From Alphaproteobacteria bacterium (GTDB lineage: Bacteria; Pseudomonadota; Alphaproteobacteria; Micropepsales; Micropepsaceae), in contig CANHNJ010000001.1 in assembly GCA_947462105.1 (NCBI GenBank), forward strand, positions 1 through 64,000: a stretch of DNA of 64,000 nucleotides, read 5' to 3'. Numbering within the stretch: position 1 is the first letter of the stretch; every line of letters starts with the position of its first letter. Below the pieces are notes generated by a model. It searched no databases. It worked only from the letters and a program-made list of their open reading frames with translations, and was not told the DNA's origin. Position numbers and translations under genes: made by a program. This document shows, piece after piece, positions 44,681-51,331 of the stretch.

Positions 44681-46024
44681 TTATTTTTGACGATCCCAGC
44701 TCGTGTTGACGGTGAAGCGGCCGGTGGTGCGCAACTGCTCCAGCACATCGCGCGAGCGAACCAGCCAGCCCTCCTGCTTTTGCGGCGTGATGTGGTTGTG
44801 GTCGGATTCCACCATCGGCACCATTTCCTTCGGGCCCGCGATGGCGTTGAAGGCTGCAATTACGCCATAGGGCGGCGAGGTGACATCGAGCAACCCGAAC
44901 GCCACCACGCTGGCCGCTGTCACCTCGGGCGCAAAACTCATGGAATCGAAATAGGGCCCGGTGGCGGCGATGGCGGCTTCGCTGGTGGTCCAGTTGGGAT
45001 AACCGGCGCGCTGGCCGAAACGGTCGCCCACGATGTTGGCGCCCGCCGGCACATTGACCAGCATGGCGGTGATGCCGGGTACAAGCCCCGCCACGGCATA
45101 GCTTTGCTGCCCGCCCATGCTGGTGCCCATGATGACGATGGTCTTGCCGTCCCAGTGGGGGTTGCTGCGGATAAAATCGATGGCGCGGACATCGCGCAGA
45201 TACATGTTGAGGAAATAGCTGCTGTCGCGGTCATTGTTGCCCAGCGATGCATAGTTGCGCGGCGCGGTCGCTTCGGTGGGCGGCATGTCGTGGGAATCGA
45301 CATTGAAGGCCAGCCAGCCTTCGGCGGCGCGGTTGACCGCGGTTTCCTTCTCCAGCGCATAGACCCCGGCATACTGGTAGATCACCAGCGCCGGATACTT
45401 GCCGTCGCGATCCGGCCGGGCGAGATAGCCCTGGACCTTGGAACCCACACTGTCGATCACGATGGTGCTGAGGGTCACGCCCGCGCGGCCGCTTTCCACC
45501 GGCGTCAGATCGGCGCGCAGGGGAATGGCGCGCAACGCCGCCAGCTTGCCGTCCCAGAACGCCTTGAAGTCGGCGGGGCGCGGGCTTGCGGGGCGGATAT
45601 CCCGAATGCCGATAGCGGCAGCGGCACTGATCGCCGCCTGAACCGGGCCGGTGACATTGGGCGCGGGGGCGTTGGCGGCCTGCACCGGCTTCAGCACCAG
45701 CGTGATCATGCCGGGGCGCGGCAGCGCGCCGCTCACCACCGCCATGCCGGATGACAGGTCGAGCGCCCCCGACGACAGCACCGCCAGGTTGTTCTCGCGT
45801 ACTTCATAGGTGTAGCGCGCAGCGGGCATGCCCAGCGGCTGGCGCACCGTCCATGACACGTTCTCGCCCACGGCATAGAGGCCGCTGGCCCGCGCCCCGG
45901 TGATGGTGATGTTGGGGCTGAAAGGCGGGGCTGGGGTGACGGCGACTGGCGGCGCGGCCACCTGTGCCTGTGCAGAGGTGATCGCGAAGGCCGCAGCGAG
46001 CAGGAATGCGGAAATCTGGCGCAT
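44681..46024 (-). CDS. Secreted acetyl-xylan-esterase-like alpha/beta hydrolase (CE7 type)
   Basis: A 447-residue exported hydrolase. The signal peptide ends at SAQAQ, an N-terminal beta-rich domain runs to about residue 150, and then an alpha/beta-hydrolase domain of the acetyl xylan esterase/cephalosporin-C deacetylase type follows: nucleophile in GTSMGGQQS, acid in FGLLDVTSPP, His in ESDHNHITPQ, and oxyanion segment QYAGVYALE. It would remove acetyl groups from sugars. It lies 8 bases downstream of the sialate O-acetylesterase gene, giving a two-gene deacetylation operon. Confidence 0.82.
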   Translation of the reverse strand: MRQISAFLLAAAFAITSAQAQVAAPPVAVTPAPPFSPNITITGARASGLYAVGENVSWTVRQPLGMPAARYTYEVRENNLAVLSSGALDLSSGMAVVSGALPRPGMITLVLKPVQAANAPAPNVTGPVQAAISAAAAIGIRDIRPASPRPADFKAFWDGKLAALRAIPLRADLTPVESGRAGVTLSTIVIDSVGSKVQGYLARPDRDGKYPALVIYQYAGVYALEKETAVNRAAEGWLAFNVDSHDMPPTEATAPRNYASLGNNDRDSSYFLNMYLRDVRAIDFIRSNPHWDGKTIVIMGTSMGGQQSYAVAGLVPGITAMLVNVPAGANIVGDRFGQRAGYPNWTTSEAAIAATGPYFDSMSFAPEVTAASVVAFGLLDVTSPPYGVIAAFNAIAGPKEMVPMVESDHNHITPQKQEGWLVRSRDVLEQLRTTGRFTVNTSWDRQK

Positions 46025-46032
46025 GACGGCTC

Positions 46033-48009
46033 CTAGCGAATGGGGGCTTCGAACGGCCCGGCGGGCAGGCCAGACGCATCATATAAAGTGCAGACCGGGC
46101 TTTCCCCCCAGCAATAGCGCACCCGCGTAGCGGCTCCTGCATTGGGCAAGACGATGCTGGCGCCATCGATACGGCTGTCGGCCCAGCGGCAGCTCGCTTG
46201 CGCCGCGCCGCACAGCTCGAAGCCCAGCGGATTGCCGCTGCGGCCTGACAGCACGCCCGTGACATCGCGGAACGCCACCACCGCGTCATTGCCGCGCCGT
46301 GTCACCGCGCCCACTACCGGACCGGACGGTGGAATTTTCTCGCCATAGACCACATTGCGCGCCGCGATGGCGAGGCGGCGGCCCACATCCAGCTTGTTGC
46401 CGGGATGCAGGTTGGTGGCGTCGCCGATATCGATGTTCACGGTCAGGGCGGCGTGGCTGTCTTCCAGCACCGCCAGCCGCTGCGCCTCGCGCACATCGGC
46501 CCATCCTGACGCTGTGGGCTGCGCCGGAATGATGCCGTAATTGGGCACCTGCACGATCAGGAAGGGCATGTCCGGGTTCTCGAACTGCCGCCGCCAGTCC
46601 TGCATCATCGCCTTCAGCGTGGTGCGGTAATTGCTGGCGAAGAAGATGTTGGATTCGCCCTGGTACCAGAGCGCGGCCCTGAAACCGAACGCGCCCAGCG
46701 GTGCGACCATGCCGTTATAATCCATCGTCAGGCCATGCGTGACGCCCCAGGGCATCTGCGGCGCGATCACGCCATCGGGGAGCTGGTTGTATTTCCAGCT
46801 TTTTGACAGCGGCACGCTGGTGCCATCCGCAAAGCGGATGGCGCGTTGCTCGGCCGGGCCACGGATGCCGCAGTTGCGCCAGCTACAGAAGATGTTGGTG
46901 GCGATGACGTTGACGCCTTCCTTCAGCACGCCTGCGCGCAACGCATATTGCGTGCGGTTGGCGAAGGAGGATGAGCCGACATCCATCCCGTTGATCCAGG
47001 TTTCGTCCTCTTCGTTGACGGACGACAGATCGAGCACCGCGCCCGCCTTCTTCGCCTGCTCGGCGGTCAGCGTCACTTCGGTGCGGTACCACATCTGGCC
47101 GATGAAGCCGTCAGGGTTGCTGCCGTTCCACAGCGCCCAGGCGCCCAGCGCTTCGGGCGCGGTGGGCCACTTACTGTCATCGAAATTCACGGTCCAGGGT
47201 TCGCCGCCATTGGGCATCGCCTGTTTGAACCAGGCCTGCCATGTCGTGGCCCAGCGCCGCTGCGCCGCTGCCGGGTCTTTGCGGTAAAGCTGCAGCATCT
47301 CCAGGTCGTCCTGGAAAGTGCCCAGCTTCGCCAGTGCGGCTTCGCTCACCCAGTTGCGCACCCGCGCGCCGCCCCAGGCGGCTACCACCATGCCCATCGG
47401 CACGTTGACGGTCTTTTTCAATTCGCTGACGAAATAATAGCAACTGCCGGAAAAGCCGCCGACGGTCTCCCGGCTGCCCACCACCCAGCGCACGACATGG
47501 GCGGGGCGCGAAATCGGCGTGATGCTGCCATTGTTGGCAATGGTGATCTGGCGGATGGTGCCATCGGTGGCGCTCTGGGCGTCCTGTGCCGCGCCATTGG
47601 CGGCGCGCTGCGCCAGCGCCATGTTGGACTGGCCGGTGCAGAAGAAGACATCGCCGACCAGCACATCGCTGGCCGTGGCGGTGCGCTCGCCTGCTGTGGC
47701 ACTCAGGGTATAGGGCCCGCCGGCGGCCATCGCGGGCAGGGTGGCGCTCCAGCGTCCATCATTGCCGGCGCGAACTTGCGCGCTGTTCGCGCCCAGCGAG
47801 ACGCGCACCGCAGTGCCTGCCGCAGCTTCGCCATAGACCTTGATGGGACGGTCACGTTGCAGCACCGCATGGTCCGCGAACAGCGGGTGCAGCAGTTGCG
47901 GCTCGGTGGGCGCAACCTGCGGCGGCTGGAAAGCGGGCGGCGGGGCGGGCTGTGCCAGGGCGCCCAACGCCGTGCTGCATAGCAGCAAAACGCCTGCGAA
48001 TTTTTTCAT
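46033..48009 (-). CDS. Secreted sialate O-acetylesterase family protein
   Basis: A 658-residue exported esterase. After the signal peptide (ending LGALAQ) an Ig-like segment leads to the SASA domain with the catalytic Ser in FFCTGQSNMAL, a family ALWYQGESN block, and a late acidic/His-containing block near IGDATNLHPGNKLDVG. In non-pathogens these enzymes remove acetyl groups from plant xyloglucan or xylan side chains. A middle jelly-roll insert (SSVNEEDETWINGMDVGS) is typical. GGGGAG precedes the ATG. It is the first gene of the operon with the CE7-like esterase. Confidence 0.9.
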   Translation of the reverse strand: MKKFAGVLLLCSTALGALAQPAPPPAFQPPQVAPTEPQLLHPLFADHAVLQRDRPIKVYGEAAAGTAVRVSLGANSAQVRAGNDGRWSATLPAMAAGGPYTLSATAGERTATASDVLVGDVFFCTGQSNMALAQRAANGAAQDAQSATDGTIRQITIANNGSITPISRPAHVVRWVVGSRETVGGFSGSCYYFVSELKKTVNVPMGMVVAAWGGARVRNWVSEAALAKLGTFQDDLEMLQLYRKDPAAAQRRWATTWQAWFKQAMPNGGEPWTVNFDDSKWPTAPEALGAWALWNGSNPDGFIGQMWYRTEVTLTAEQAKKAGAVLDLSSVNEEDETWINGMDVGSSSFANRTQYALRAGVLKEGVNVIATNIFCSWRNCGIRGPAEQRAIRFADGTSVPLSKSWKYNQLPDGVIAPQMPWGVTHGLTMDYNGMVAPLGAFGFRAALWYQGESNIFFASNYRTTLKAMMQDWRRQFENPDMPFLIVQVPNYGIIPAQPTASGWADVREAQRLAVLEDSHAALTVNIDIGDATNLHPGNKLDVGRRLAIAARNVVYGEKIPPSGPVVGAVTRRGNDAVVAFRDVTGVLSGRSGNPLGFELCGAAQASCRWADSRIDGASIVLPNAGAATRVRYCWGESPVCTLYDASGLPAGPFEAPIR

Positions 48010-48157: not shown

Positions 48158-49069
48158 ATGACAATCAAGACGGCGCTGTCGCGCCGCCGGTTCATGGCGG
48201 CAGGCGTGGGCAGCGCAAGCCTTGCTGCGACGGGCGCGCAGGCACAGGCGACGCTGACGGCGGGCGCGATCCTGGAACGCATGAAGACCGAGATCGGCGG
48301 CCCCTGGCGCGACGGTGGCGTCGATCACTTGACGGCGGGCGGGCCCGACACGGTGGTGCGCGGCATTTCCACCGTGATGATGTGCAGCCTCGATGCGCTG
48401 AAGGATTCGCTCAAGGCCGGCTGCAACATGGTCATCACCCATGAGCCGACCTACTGGTCGCACCAGGACCGGCTGGACGAACTGCAGGACGACCCGCTCT
48501 ACAAGGTCAAGCTGGATTACGTCACCCGCAACAACATGGCCGTCTATCACATGCATGATCACTGGCACGCGCTGCGCCCGGTGGACGGCATCCATGTCGG
48601 CACCGCCAATGTGCTGGGCTGGACGCAATACATGCACAAGGACAATCCGCGCTATTACACCGTGCCGTCGATGACGCTGCTGGAGATGGCCCGGCACATC
48701 CAGTCCCGGATGAAGGCGCGCACCATGCGCGTCATCGGCGATCCCACCATGCCGGTGCGCGAACTTTATGCGTCTTACGGCAATTTCGGCGGCTTGGGCG
48801 GGGCGCAGATCCTGGACAATGTCGATGTCATGGTGATCGGCGAGGCGCAGGACTGGGACCTGCCCATGTTCGTGCAGGACAGCGTCGCGGCGGGCCGGAA
48901 AAAGGCCTTCATCGTCATCGGCCATGTCCTGTCCGAACAATGGGGCATGGAATATGCGGCGCAGTGGCTGCGCGGCTTCATCCGGGAAATTCCCTGCAAA
49001 TATGTTCCCATCATCGAGCCCTACTGGAATCCCAGCCGGCCGGTGATGGAAATCAACCCGAAGATCTGA
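48158..49069 (+). CDS. Tat-exported Nif3-family protein
   Basis: A 303-residue Nif3-like (dinuclear metal centre) protein. Metal-site segments are VITHEPTYWSH (H95, E96), YHMHDHWH (D134 region) and IGHVLSEQWGMEY (H256, E260). Nif3 proteins are usually cytoplasmic hexamers of uncertain hydrolase function, yet this one has a clear Tat signal (LSRRRFMAAGVG, ending TGAQAQ). GGGGAGG lies just before the ATG. The next gene, a second Nif3 homologue, is in the same frame, separated only by TGA and one codon. Confidence 0.8.
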   Translation: MTIKTALSRRRFMAAGVGSASLAATGAQAQATLTAGAILERMKTEIGGPWRDGGVDHLTAGGPDTVVRGISTVMMCSLDALKDSLKAGCNMVITHEPTYWSHQDRLDELQDDPLYKVKLDYVTRNNMAVYHMHDHWHALRPVDGIHVGTANVLGWTQYMHKDNPRYYTVPSMTLLEMARHIQSRMKARTMRVIGDPTMPVRELYASYGNFGGLGGAQILDNVDVMVIGEAQDWDLPMFVQDSVAAGRKKAFIVIGHVLSEQWGMEYAAQWLRGFIREIPCKYVPIIEPYWNPSRPVMEINPKI

Positions 49070-49072
49070 ACC

Positions 49073-49975
49073 ATGGCCGAGATAAGTCTTGCACAGGCAA
49101 CGCCGCCCGCACCGCCGCCGCCCGCTGGCCCCGGTCGCGGCCCGCAACGCACCGGCCCCGTCATGGCGGGGCAGTTGATCGACCTGATCCTGACGCGGTT
49201 GGGCACGCCGGGCCGTCCGCGCAGCAATGATCGCTTCATCGCGGGCGATCCGCTGACACCGGTCACCGGCATCGCCACCGTAGCGATGGCGACCTTCGAC
49301 GCGCTGAAGGCCGCCGCCGCCGCGAAAGCCAACCTGATCTTGACGGCAGACGCCACCTTCTGGGGTGACAATGACGCGGTCACCGGCCTGGAAGGCAACG
49401 AAACCTTCAAGGCCAAGCGCGACTTCATCCGCGCCAACAATCTGGTGATCTACCGCATCGCCGATCACCTGGCCGACAGTGCGCCCAATCCCATCCGCGC
49501 GGGCATGGCGCGTGAACTGGGCTGGCAAGAGACGGCGCAGGGCGGCGAAGCGGCGCGCTTCCGCCTGCCCCCCACCAACCTGTTGCAGCTTTCGCAACTC
49601 CTGCAGACCCGGCTTGGTGCGCGTACCCTGCGCGTGATCGGTGATCCCACGCTGCCGGTGAGCAATGTCGCCGCCATCTGGGGCCGCGCGGCGCAGATGC
49701 CCGCCATCCGCACCCTGCGCAGCGACATCGATGTGCTGCTGGTGGGCTACACGTTCGAATGGGAAGCGGTGCTCTATGCCCAGGACCAGATCGCCATCGG
49801 CATGAAAAAGGGCCTGATCCTGCTGGGGCAGGTGCCGTCGCTGCAGGGCGGGATGAAATACTTTTCCGAATGGCTGGCGGGGCAGGTGACCGAAGTGCCG
49901 GTGCGCCACATCCCGCTGGTGGAAACCTGGTGGAACCTCGATCGCCCGGTCAACGAGATCAAGACAACCATATAA
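49073..49975 (+). CDS. Degenerate Nif3-family paralogue
   Basis: A 300-residue protein aligning end to end with the preceding gene (shared TMRVIGDPT-like/TLRVIGDPT and GGMKYFSEW/WGMEYAAQW landmarks). Its metal-site residues have changed: THEPTYW becomes TADATFW, HMHDH becomes RIADH, and GHVLSEQ becomes GQVPSLQ. It should not form the normal dinuclear centre. It has no signal peptide but starts like a mature exported protein (AQATPPAPPPPAGPGRG). The ribosome site is weak. It may pair with the upstream protein and be co-exported, or be made by read-through of the TGA; both are inference. Confidence 0.75.
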   Translation: MAEISLAQATPPAPPPPAGPGRGPQRTGPVMAGQLIDLILTRLGTPGRPRSNDRFIAGDPLTPVTGIATVAMATFDALKAAAAAKANLILTADATFWGDNDAVTGLEGNETFKAKRDFIRANNLVIYRIADHLADSAPNPIRAGMARELGWQETAQGGEAARFRLPPTNLLQLSQLLQTRLGARTLRVIGDPTLPVSNVAAIWGRAAQMPAIRTLRSDIDVLLVGYTFEWEAVLYAQDQIAIGMKKGLILLGQVPSLQGGMKYFSEWLAGQVTEVPVRHIPLVETWWNLDRPVNEIKTTI

Positions 49976-49990: not shown

Positions 49991-51331
49991 ATGCGGACCA
50001 TCACCCGTCTTGCCGCCGCTGTGCTGCTGCTGGCGTCGTTCACCGCGCCCGCGCTGGCCGACAACTGGGTCGGGGCCTGGGCCTATGTTCCCGCGCCGCT
50101 GCCGCCGGGCCTGAACCCAGCGCCGCTGGCGCCCGCCAATGTCGGCCCGTCCAATGGCGCGCCGATCCTGCCGCTGGGGCCTTCGCCGGTGCCGCCGGTG
50201 AACAATGCCGCGCCCGCCGCCCCCCGGATCGAGAATCCGGGCAATGTCGGCATCCTCGACAATTTCGTGCCGCTGACCAACGTCACGGTGCGCCAGCTGG
50301 TGCGGGTTTCGGCGGGCGGCACGCAAATTCGCCTGCGCTTTTCCAACGAGAACGGCACCGACATGCTGCCGGTGGGGGCGGTGCGCGTCGGGCTGGCCGG
50401 GCCGAATGGCGATGTCCTGCCCAATAGCAGCCATGTGGTGACGTTCGATGGCCGCAGCGGCGGCGTCATGATCCCGGCTTCCGCACCGCTCTACAGCGAT
50501 CCGGTTGGCATCACGGTGAAGCCGCTCGACCGGTTGCTGATCTCCATCCATGTTCCGGGCGCGGTGCCGCGCACGGGCCGCAGCCTCTTCATGTATGTGA
50601 CGCAGGCCGGTGGCGACCGCACAGCCGAGGCGCGGCTGCCCGATGCGAAGCTCACCCGCGTCACCACCTATGTGACCCAGGTCGAGGTCAATGCCGACGC
50701 CCCCACCAGCGCCATCGTCACCATTGGCGATTCCATTACCGAAGGCTCGCAATCCACCTTCAATGCCTTCCGCTCCTATCCCGACCGGCTCGCCGAACGG
50801 CTGGTGGCGGCGAAGAAGAGCTGGACGGTGGTCAATGCCGGCATCGGCGGCAACCGCGTGCTGCGCTATGGCACCGGCCCCAACCTGCTGGCCCGCTTCG
50901 ACCGCGATGTGCTCAGCGTGCCCGGCGTCAAGGCGGTGATCCTGCTGGAAGGCATCAACGATATCGGGCGCGGCTTCACCAACACCGGCCCGCGCGAGCC
51001 CCTGACGGCAGAAGCCCTGATCGCCGGGCACAAGCAGATCATCGCCCGCGCCCATGCGCTTGGCATCAAGGTCTATGGCGGGCTGCTGACGCCGTATGGC
51101 GGTGCGGGCTATGCCTCGCCGGACGGTGAACAGGTGCGCCAGGCCCTGAACAACTGGATCCGCACATCGAATGCCTTTGACGGCGTGATCGATTTCGCCG
51201 CGCCCACCGCCGACAAGGCCAACCCGCTGACGTTTGCTGCCGGGTTCAATGATGGCGACAAGCTGCATCCCAACGATGCCGGCTACCAGGCGATGGCCGA
51301 TGCCATCGACCTGGAAATGGTAACGCGTTAA
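49991..51331 (+). CDS. Secreted SGNH/GDSL hydrolase
   Basis: A 446-residue exported esterase. The signal peptide ends at APALAD. A Pro-rich beta-domain occupies the first half. The SGNH blocks follow: block I TIGDSITEGSQ with the catalytic Ser, block II GIGGNRVL (Gly), block III EGINDIG (Asn), and block V GDKLHPNDAGY with Asp and His. Such enzymes deacetylate or de-esterify carbohydrates. It follows the two Nif3 genes after 15 bases, preceded by AAGAGGG, so the three form an operon divergent from the two esterases. Confidence 0.88.
   Translation: MRTITRLAAAVLLLASFTAPALADNWVGAWAYVPAPLPPGLNPAPLAPANVGPSNGAPILPLGPSPVPPVNNAAPAAPRIENPGNVGILDNFVPLTNVTVRQLVRVSAGGTQIRLRFSNENGTDMLPVGAVRVGLAGPNGDVLPNSSHVVTFDGRSGGVMIPASAPLYSDPVGITVKPLDRLLISIHVPGAVPRTGRSLFMYVTQAGGDRTAEARLPDAKLTRVTTYVTQVEVNADAPTSAIVTIGDSITEGSQSTFNAFRSYPDRLAERLVAAKKSWTVVNAGIGGNRVLRYGTGPNLLARFDRDVLSVPGVKAVILLEGINDIGRGFTNTGPREPLTAEALIAGHKQIIARAHALGIKVYGGLLTPYGGAGYASPDGEQVRQALNNWIRTSNAFDGVIDFAAPTADKANPLTFAAGFNDGDKLHPNDAGYQAMADAIDLEMVTR

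Follow-up and report, generated by a model that had tools for sequence, protein, structure and literature searches.

NIF3/DUF34 proteins are nearly ubiquitous, but there is no agreement on the reaction they catalyze, and their annotation as "GTP cyclohydrolase" is disputed. A locus that encodes two adjacent members of this family, one with an export signal and an intact metal pocket and the other with neither, raises the question of what the second protein does for the first and in which compartment the two would act. The locus lies in a window of 64,000 nucleotides, the whole stretch of DNA analyzed here, from an alphaproteobacterium of the family Micropepsaceae (contig CANHNJ010000001.1 of assembly GCA_947462105.1), whose 2.17 Mb genome (41 contigs, 98% complete) encodes TatC and holds no further DUF34 gene. 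As the original prediction had it, gene A (48158..49069, plus strand; 303 aa) and gene B (49073..49975, plus strand; 300 aa) are adjacent open reading frames of the Nif3 family, here in the same frame, and the tandem recurs in eight assemblies. Both exceed the curated 23.4-bit cut-off of the Pfam model DUF34_NIF3 (PF01784), A with 48.3 bits (1.3e-12) and B with 32.4 bits (9.4e-8); they are 35% identical over 277 aa, and each separately spans the whole NIF3 domain rather than one half of a shared domain. Coordinates of both genes come from direct reading of the sequence; GC-based gene prediction put a few genes in the wrong place, the window's A among them.

The N-terminus of A, MTIKTALSRRRFMAAGVGSASLAATGAQAQA, carries by motif and hydropathy a twin-arginine signal peptide (residues 1-30, 48158..48247, plus strand; SRRRFM motif and hydrophobic stretch) with its arginine pair at 48182-48187, a pair present in all eight A proteins and in 7/7 single-copy relatives of the genus. 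The export signal foreseen for A therefore stands, but not the idea that an exported Nif3 is without precedent, since Reed et al. 2021 (PMC8469502) name the Tat signal as the most frequent "fusion" partner among bacterial DUF34 proteins. The predicted pocket motifs are likewise intact: A retains THEP, HMHDHWH and GHVLSE, and its pocket is made up of H95 and E96 (THEP; 48440..48445), H133 to H137 (HDHWH; 48554..48568), E229 (GE motif; 48842..48844), and H256 and E260 (GHVLSE; 48923..48937), all on the plus strand, with each residue named here unchanged across the 20 non-B relatives. Set against E. coli YbgI, they fall on positions that we take to be metal-binding (H95=H63, E96=H64, H137=D101, E229=E194, H256=H215, E260=E219), the H137=D101 match being an ungapped reading of HxxxD/HxxxH at a point where the automatic alignment is shifted.

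The two exchanges relative to YbgI, H64 to E and D101 to H, are common to all 20 non-B rows, XynX included, and are thus a marker of the XynX subgroup rather than a loss; the XynX-type pocket set of A does not vary across XynX and relatives from four phyla. Among solved structures, both proteins come closest to XynX (PDB 9g9u; A 1.2e-41, B 4.3e-28) of Geobacillus proteiniphilus T-6, which earlier papers call G. stearothermophilus. A belongs to the XynX subgroup by sequence and pocket, B by sequence and fold only. A shares with XynX the pocket variant (HE, HxxxH, GE, HxxxE) and a hemicellulose context; unlike XynX, which is cytoplasmic by sequence and of which we know no twin, A carries an export signal and is paired with a protein that lacks the pocket. 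With YbgI and the housekeeping hexamers SA1388 and YqfO the pair shares the Pfam family and the fold (B model Z 23-25), in contrast to which cytoplasmic homohexamers A shows the two pocket exchanges and scores 25.9 bits against a cut-off of 130.55 for the YbgI equivalog TIGR00486, a model that B does not match. A housekeeping Nif3 role for A was considered and rejected on this score, yet the genome has no other DUF34 gene. Closer parallels are the Tat-tagged single-copy DUF34 proteins of the same genus and of Spirosoma, which like A combine a twin arginine with an intact XynX-type pocket but, unlike A, have no twin. Reed et al. (PMC8469502) describe XynX as a DUF34 family member that negatively regulates the secreted xylanase gene xynA; the export signal of A argues against a XynX-like role at a cytoplasmic promoter.

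B starts with MAEISLAQATPPAPPPPAGPGRGPQ, which has neither a twin arginine nor a hydrophobic signal stretch, and replaces the motifs at A's pocket sites with TADA, RIADHLA and GQVPSLQ. The original prediction of a signal-less protein with substituted ligands was correct on both counts, and B homologues with their own signal and intact ligands, the finding it had named as fatal to it, did not appear: no export signal was found in any of the eight B proteins, and all eight have lost the pocket. When the 29 columns invariant across the 20 catalytic-type (non-B) relatives are compared with the eight B, 17 are kept in every B and four are missing from every B, all four of them pocket positions: H95 (replaced by Y, L or A), H137 (R or A), E229 (always Y) and H256 (Q, D or E). 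E260 is missing in seven of the eight, and Tyr226 (49748..49750, plus strand), which stands in place of Glu229, is the sole residue that is invariant in B and occurs in no other row. The chance that four all-B losses would all fall within the six pocket columns, picked by homology to YbgI, is about 6e-4, a generous figure as the H137 column was picked after the result had been seen; with the earlier column set, which had D134 instead of H137, it is 0.02. HDH had been put forward as a ligand motif, but its D, which B keeps, is probably not a ligand, so the loss in B is more complete than first stated. Eukaryotic NIF3 proteins also have Tyr at the first His position (PMC8469502), so that the H95 change alone is no proof of a dead site; the combined pocket losses make a dead site in B likely.

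B evolves faster than A, most of all in the window's lineage, with dN/dS in the closest pairs of 0.16 (G018/G009) and 0.53 (window/G007) for B and 0.07 and 0.20 for A, rough values given that synonymous sites are near saturation. B is thus a DUF34/NIF3 protein by descent and fold, lacking the metal pocket of the family. With its losses confined to the pocket and 17 invariant columns kept in all copies, B is, on this substitution pattern, a conserved pseudo-subunit under purifying selection, neither a relic nor a sequencing error. The catalytic-type/non-catalytic pairing that had been claimed is borne out and kept as such in eight genomes. No description of such a NIF3 pair was found in the open literature, a result that covers open papers only and weighs little.

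The genome survey proposed at the outset found the tandem in eight genomes of one genus (the window's own, G007, G009, G011, G016, G018, G030 and G100) and nowhere outside that genus in the samples searched. It was absent from 27 genomes belonging to the family's other genera; a class sample of 386 genomes gave the window and G030, of the same genus, and no more, and a phylum sample of 397 genomes gave the window and no other. One scan of genome contigs used a single-protein query and finds close relatives only. Viral contigs yielded nothing; seven plasmid records, the only route by which other phyla were reached, gave single matches, and in the four regions inspected (Spirosoma, two Deinococcus, Paenibacillus) the Nif3 gene had no second one next to it. 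Another five genomes of the genus have a single-copy Tat-tagged relative, as do G009 and G018 beside their tandem, and B without A was never found among the genomes searched. In a maximum-likelihood tree all A form one clade (99/97) and all B another (100/99), with similar inner branching, so a single duplication preceded the eight lineages and was followed by co-inheritance. Distances among A and among B correlate at 0.85, a value that shared species history alone could yield.

Two further observations deserve mention. In G018 there is a second Nif3 twin, divergent and with the gene order reversed (contigs 345 and 472; L039:1-1419, minus strand, and L040:1-600, plus strand): the first protein has neither signal nor pocket residues, the next is Tat-tagged and retains the HDHWH and HxxxE motifs, and the two sit behind a pectate-lyase/SMP-30-type gene. 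The twin on contig 345 has no place in the tree (branch 2.9), and its host is unsure, the G018 MAG having 74% completeness and 5% contamination; the same layout could here have arisen independently. The other observation concerns a contig assigned to Thalassovita (L027:5911-6792; GC 35%), which has one Nif3 relative, whose signal is Sec-like; the genes around it look like those of Bacteroidota, so the contig is probably misbinned.

The junction between the two genes (49067..49075, plus strand) reads TGA, ACC, ATG, a gap of 3 nt without a good ribosome site, the window's site energy being -1.0 kcal/mol for B versus -10.8 kcal/mol for A; across loci, B sites range from -0.2 to -6.8 and A sites, in six of eight, from -7.1 to -10.8 kcal/mol. 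A weak site right behind A suggests that B may be translationally coupled to A, which would yield the two proteins in matched amounts. The original prediction had also drawn from the shared frame, the single codon after TGA and the weak ribosome site the possibility of low-level stop read-through, giving an exported A-B fusion. These features are present in the window, TGA ends A in all eight pairs and six pairs are in frame, but the shared frame is not conserved (gaps of 3, 3, 9, 9, 2, 3, 3 and -4 nt, of which 2 and -4 break it), and a fusion is impossible in G011 and G100, whose pairs are out of frame. The base after the stop is A, G or C, with none shared, B starts from an ATG or GTG of its own, and six in-frame pairs out of eight are a weak argument because two pairs of the loci are closely related; we therefore consider read-through very improbable and the fusion claim abandoned. 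Still less credible is that B is a decaying copy, or that a TGA error has split one gene. The faster evolution of B, greatest in the window's lineage (dN/dS 0.53), would fit decay, but comparison across the eight genomes refutes both readings, as B is full length in all of them with dN/dS below 1 and the 17 invariant residues kept in 8/8, TGA ends A in every assembly, and A and B each contain a whole NIF3 domain.

Alone, B is predicted to adopt the NIF3 fold (pLDDT 78.7, pTM 0.77), and the nearest structure to the model is XynX 9g9u (Z 31.6, rmsd 2.0, 261 aligned), followed by SA1388, a B. cereus NIF3 protein and YbgI (Z 23.3). A and B modeled as one chain through the TGA, as a modeling device only, gave a pTM of 0.76 over 605 residues from a shallow alignment of 7 sequences with 4 rows of full pairs. 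Freely floating halves would be expected to give a pTM nearer 0.5, and the model accordingly suggests a definite contact between the A and B halves; a homodimer contact, as known in this family, could produce a similar result, and the model does not discriminate between that and an A:B contact. A C-terminal tail of A, PV(F/M)EIN(T/P)K (49040-49066 in the window), is conserved in all eight tandem A and missing from the single-copy relatives, and the B proteins of the window and G007 have a similar tail; the tail of A may be a contact with B or a piece of the coupling signal.

The neighboring genes point to hemicellulose side groups. Directly behind B lies a secreted SGNH/GDSL hydrolase (49991..51331, plus strand; PF13472 1.4e-31), and on the minus strand are a divergent secreted SASA-type carbohydrate esterase (46033..48009; PF03629 6e-17) and a secreted acetyl-xylan-esterase-type (AXE1) hydrolase (44681..46024; PF05448 4.5e-28). 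The G007 locus keeps the SASA homologue near the pair and the SGNH homologue downstream of it, with a gene for a GPR1/FUN34/YaaH-family transporter directly behind B. In five of the eight loci a glucuronoyl-esterase-family gene (PF22244) lies within 1.2 kb of A; the genomes concerned, G007, G009, G011, G018 and G030, hold 2, 5, 1, 8 and 1 such genes, and for the single-copy cases, G011 and G030, such proximity would arise by chance with a probability of about 0.002 per genome (~5 kb in 3 Mb). The orientation of this gene varies among loci, which argues for more than inherited gene order. Among the other tandem genomes, G016 and G100 have no such gene and G000 has one, on another contig only; none was found beside the single-copy Nif3 relatives, which are near GntR, flavin oxidoreductase, arabinofuranosidase and SMP-30 lactonase genes. 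TonB receptors and FecR/sigma-factor-like genes are found near the pair in G009, G018 and G011, and the XynX-type gene of Paenibacillus adjoins a GntR regulator and an alpha-glucuronidase. The polysaccharide role first proposed from the window is thereby better supported than from the window's sequence alone, and the part of that proposal that fails is its novelty, as the nearest solved relative, XynX, is itself part of a xylan system.

In the reading that we favor, with moderate confidence, A and B form a hetero-oligomer in which B hitch-hikes through Tat with A and which acts on hemicellulose fragments in the periplasm. A, bearing the Tat signal, would fold and load metal in the cytoplasm; B, made from A's mRNA by translational coupling, would join it via the usual Nif3 dimer/hexamer contacts and cross the membrane with folded A, as in some two-subunit Tat substrates. 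In the periplasm the metal sites of A would act on a hemicellulose breakdown product, most likely a xylan fragment that bears a uronic acid or an ester, and B, holding no metals, would shape or gate neighboring sites. Such hitch-hiking is known for hydrogenase 2 of E. coli, where HybO has the twin arginine and HybC is its folded, signal-less partner; the same division holds in all eight A-B pairs, although HybO and HybC, in contrast to A and B, are not paralogues, and co-export here is putative. We infer the oligomer, co-export, substrate and role of B from these data, and regard heteromer and co-export as plausible. For the oligomer we count the tandem in eight genomes with no lone B, the parallel clades, the pocket-only losses, B's dN/dS of 0.16-0.53, the weak B ribosome site, the one-chain pTM and the architecture of the family, homohexameric toroids whose rings are built from dimers (PMC8469502); against it, single-copy Tat-tagged relatives manage without a twin. 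The xylan substrate, at which the neighbors hint, is favored by PF22244 in five loci, the window's esterases and the Paenibacillus alpha-glucuronidase, and opposed by the loci of G016, G100 and G000. A fuller version, in which this is the first hetero-oligomeric Nif3, an exported metal-active A with an obligate, metal-less, hitch-hiking B that acts on glucuronoyl-ester or uronic-acid xylan fragments, is offered tentatively.

The absence of a signal from every B could also mean that B stays in the cytoplasm, as a dedicated assembly or proof-reading partner that keeps hold of A before export or as a ligand-sensing regulator resembling XynX, and that A is a periplasmic homohexamer; the existence of single-copy Tat-tagged relatives indicates that an A-type protein can act alone, and XynX itself, which lacks a signal, is reported to regulate a xylanase gene (PMC8469502). 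XynX, however, keeps the pocket that B has lost, and a separate regulator would need no such tight coupling to A, without which B was never found, so that we hold a cytoplasmic B to be possible but somewhat unlikely. The same coupling and strict co-occurrence weigh against B being merely co-transcribed with A and acting by itself as a homo-oligomeric binding protein or metal-independent enzyme, an explanation that we judge decidedly unlikely, even though purifying selection and the invariant new Tyr at the E229 position would fit a new function. The hetero-oligomer that we prefer would, if true, give the family an assayable substrate class and a compartment. In this lineage Nif3 is exported, split in two and repeatedly a neighbor of glucuronoyl and acetyl-xylan esterases, which confines the question to these two points, and B, as a natural site-less subunit, offers a control for Nif3 function.

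Export signals are also present on usually cytoplasmic enzymes near the pairs (L028:2464-6662, L032:8482-9768), namely an RraA-type aldolase, a SelA-like PLP enzyme and an amidohydrolase in G007 and an aldolase-like protein in G030, which suggests a wider periplasmic catabolism in the genus.
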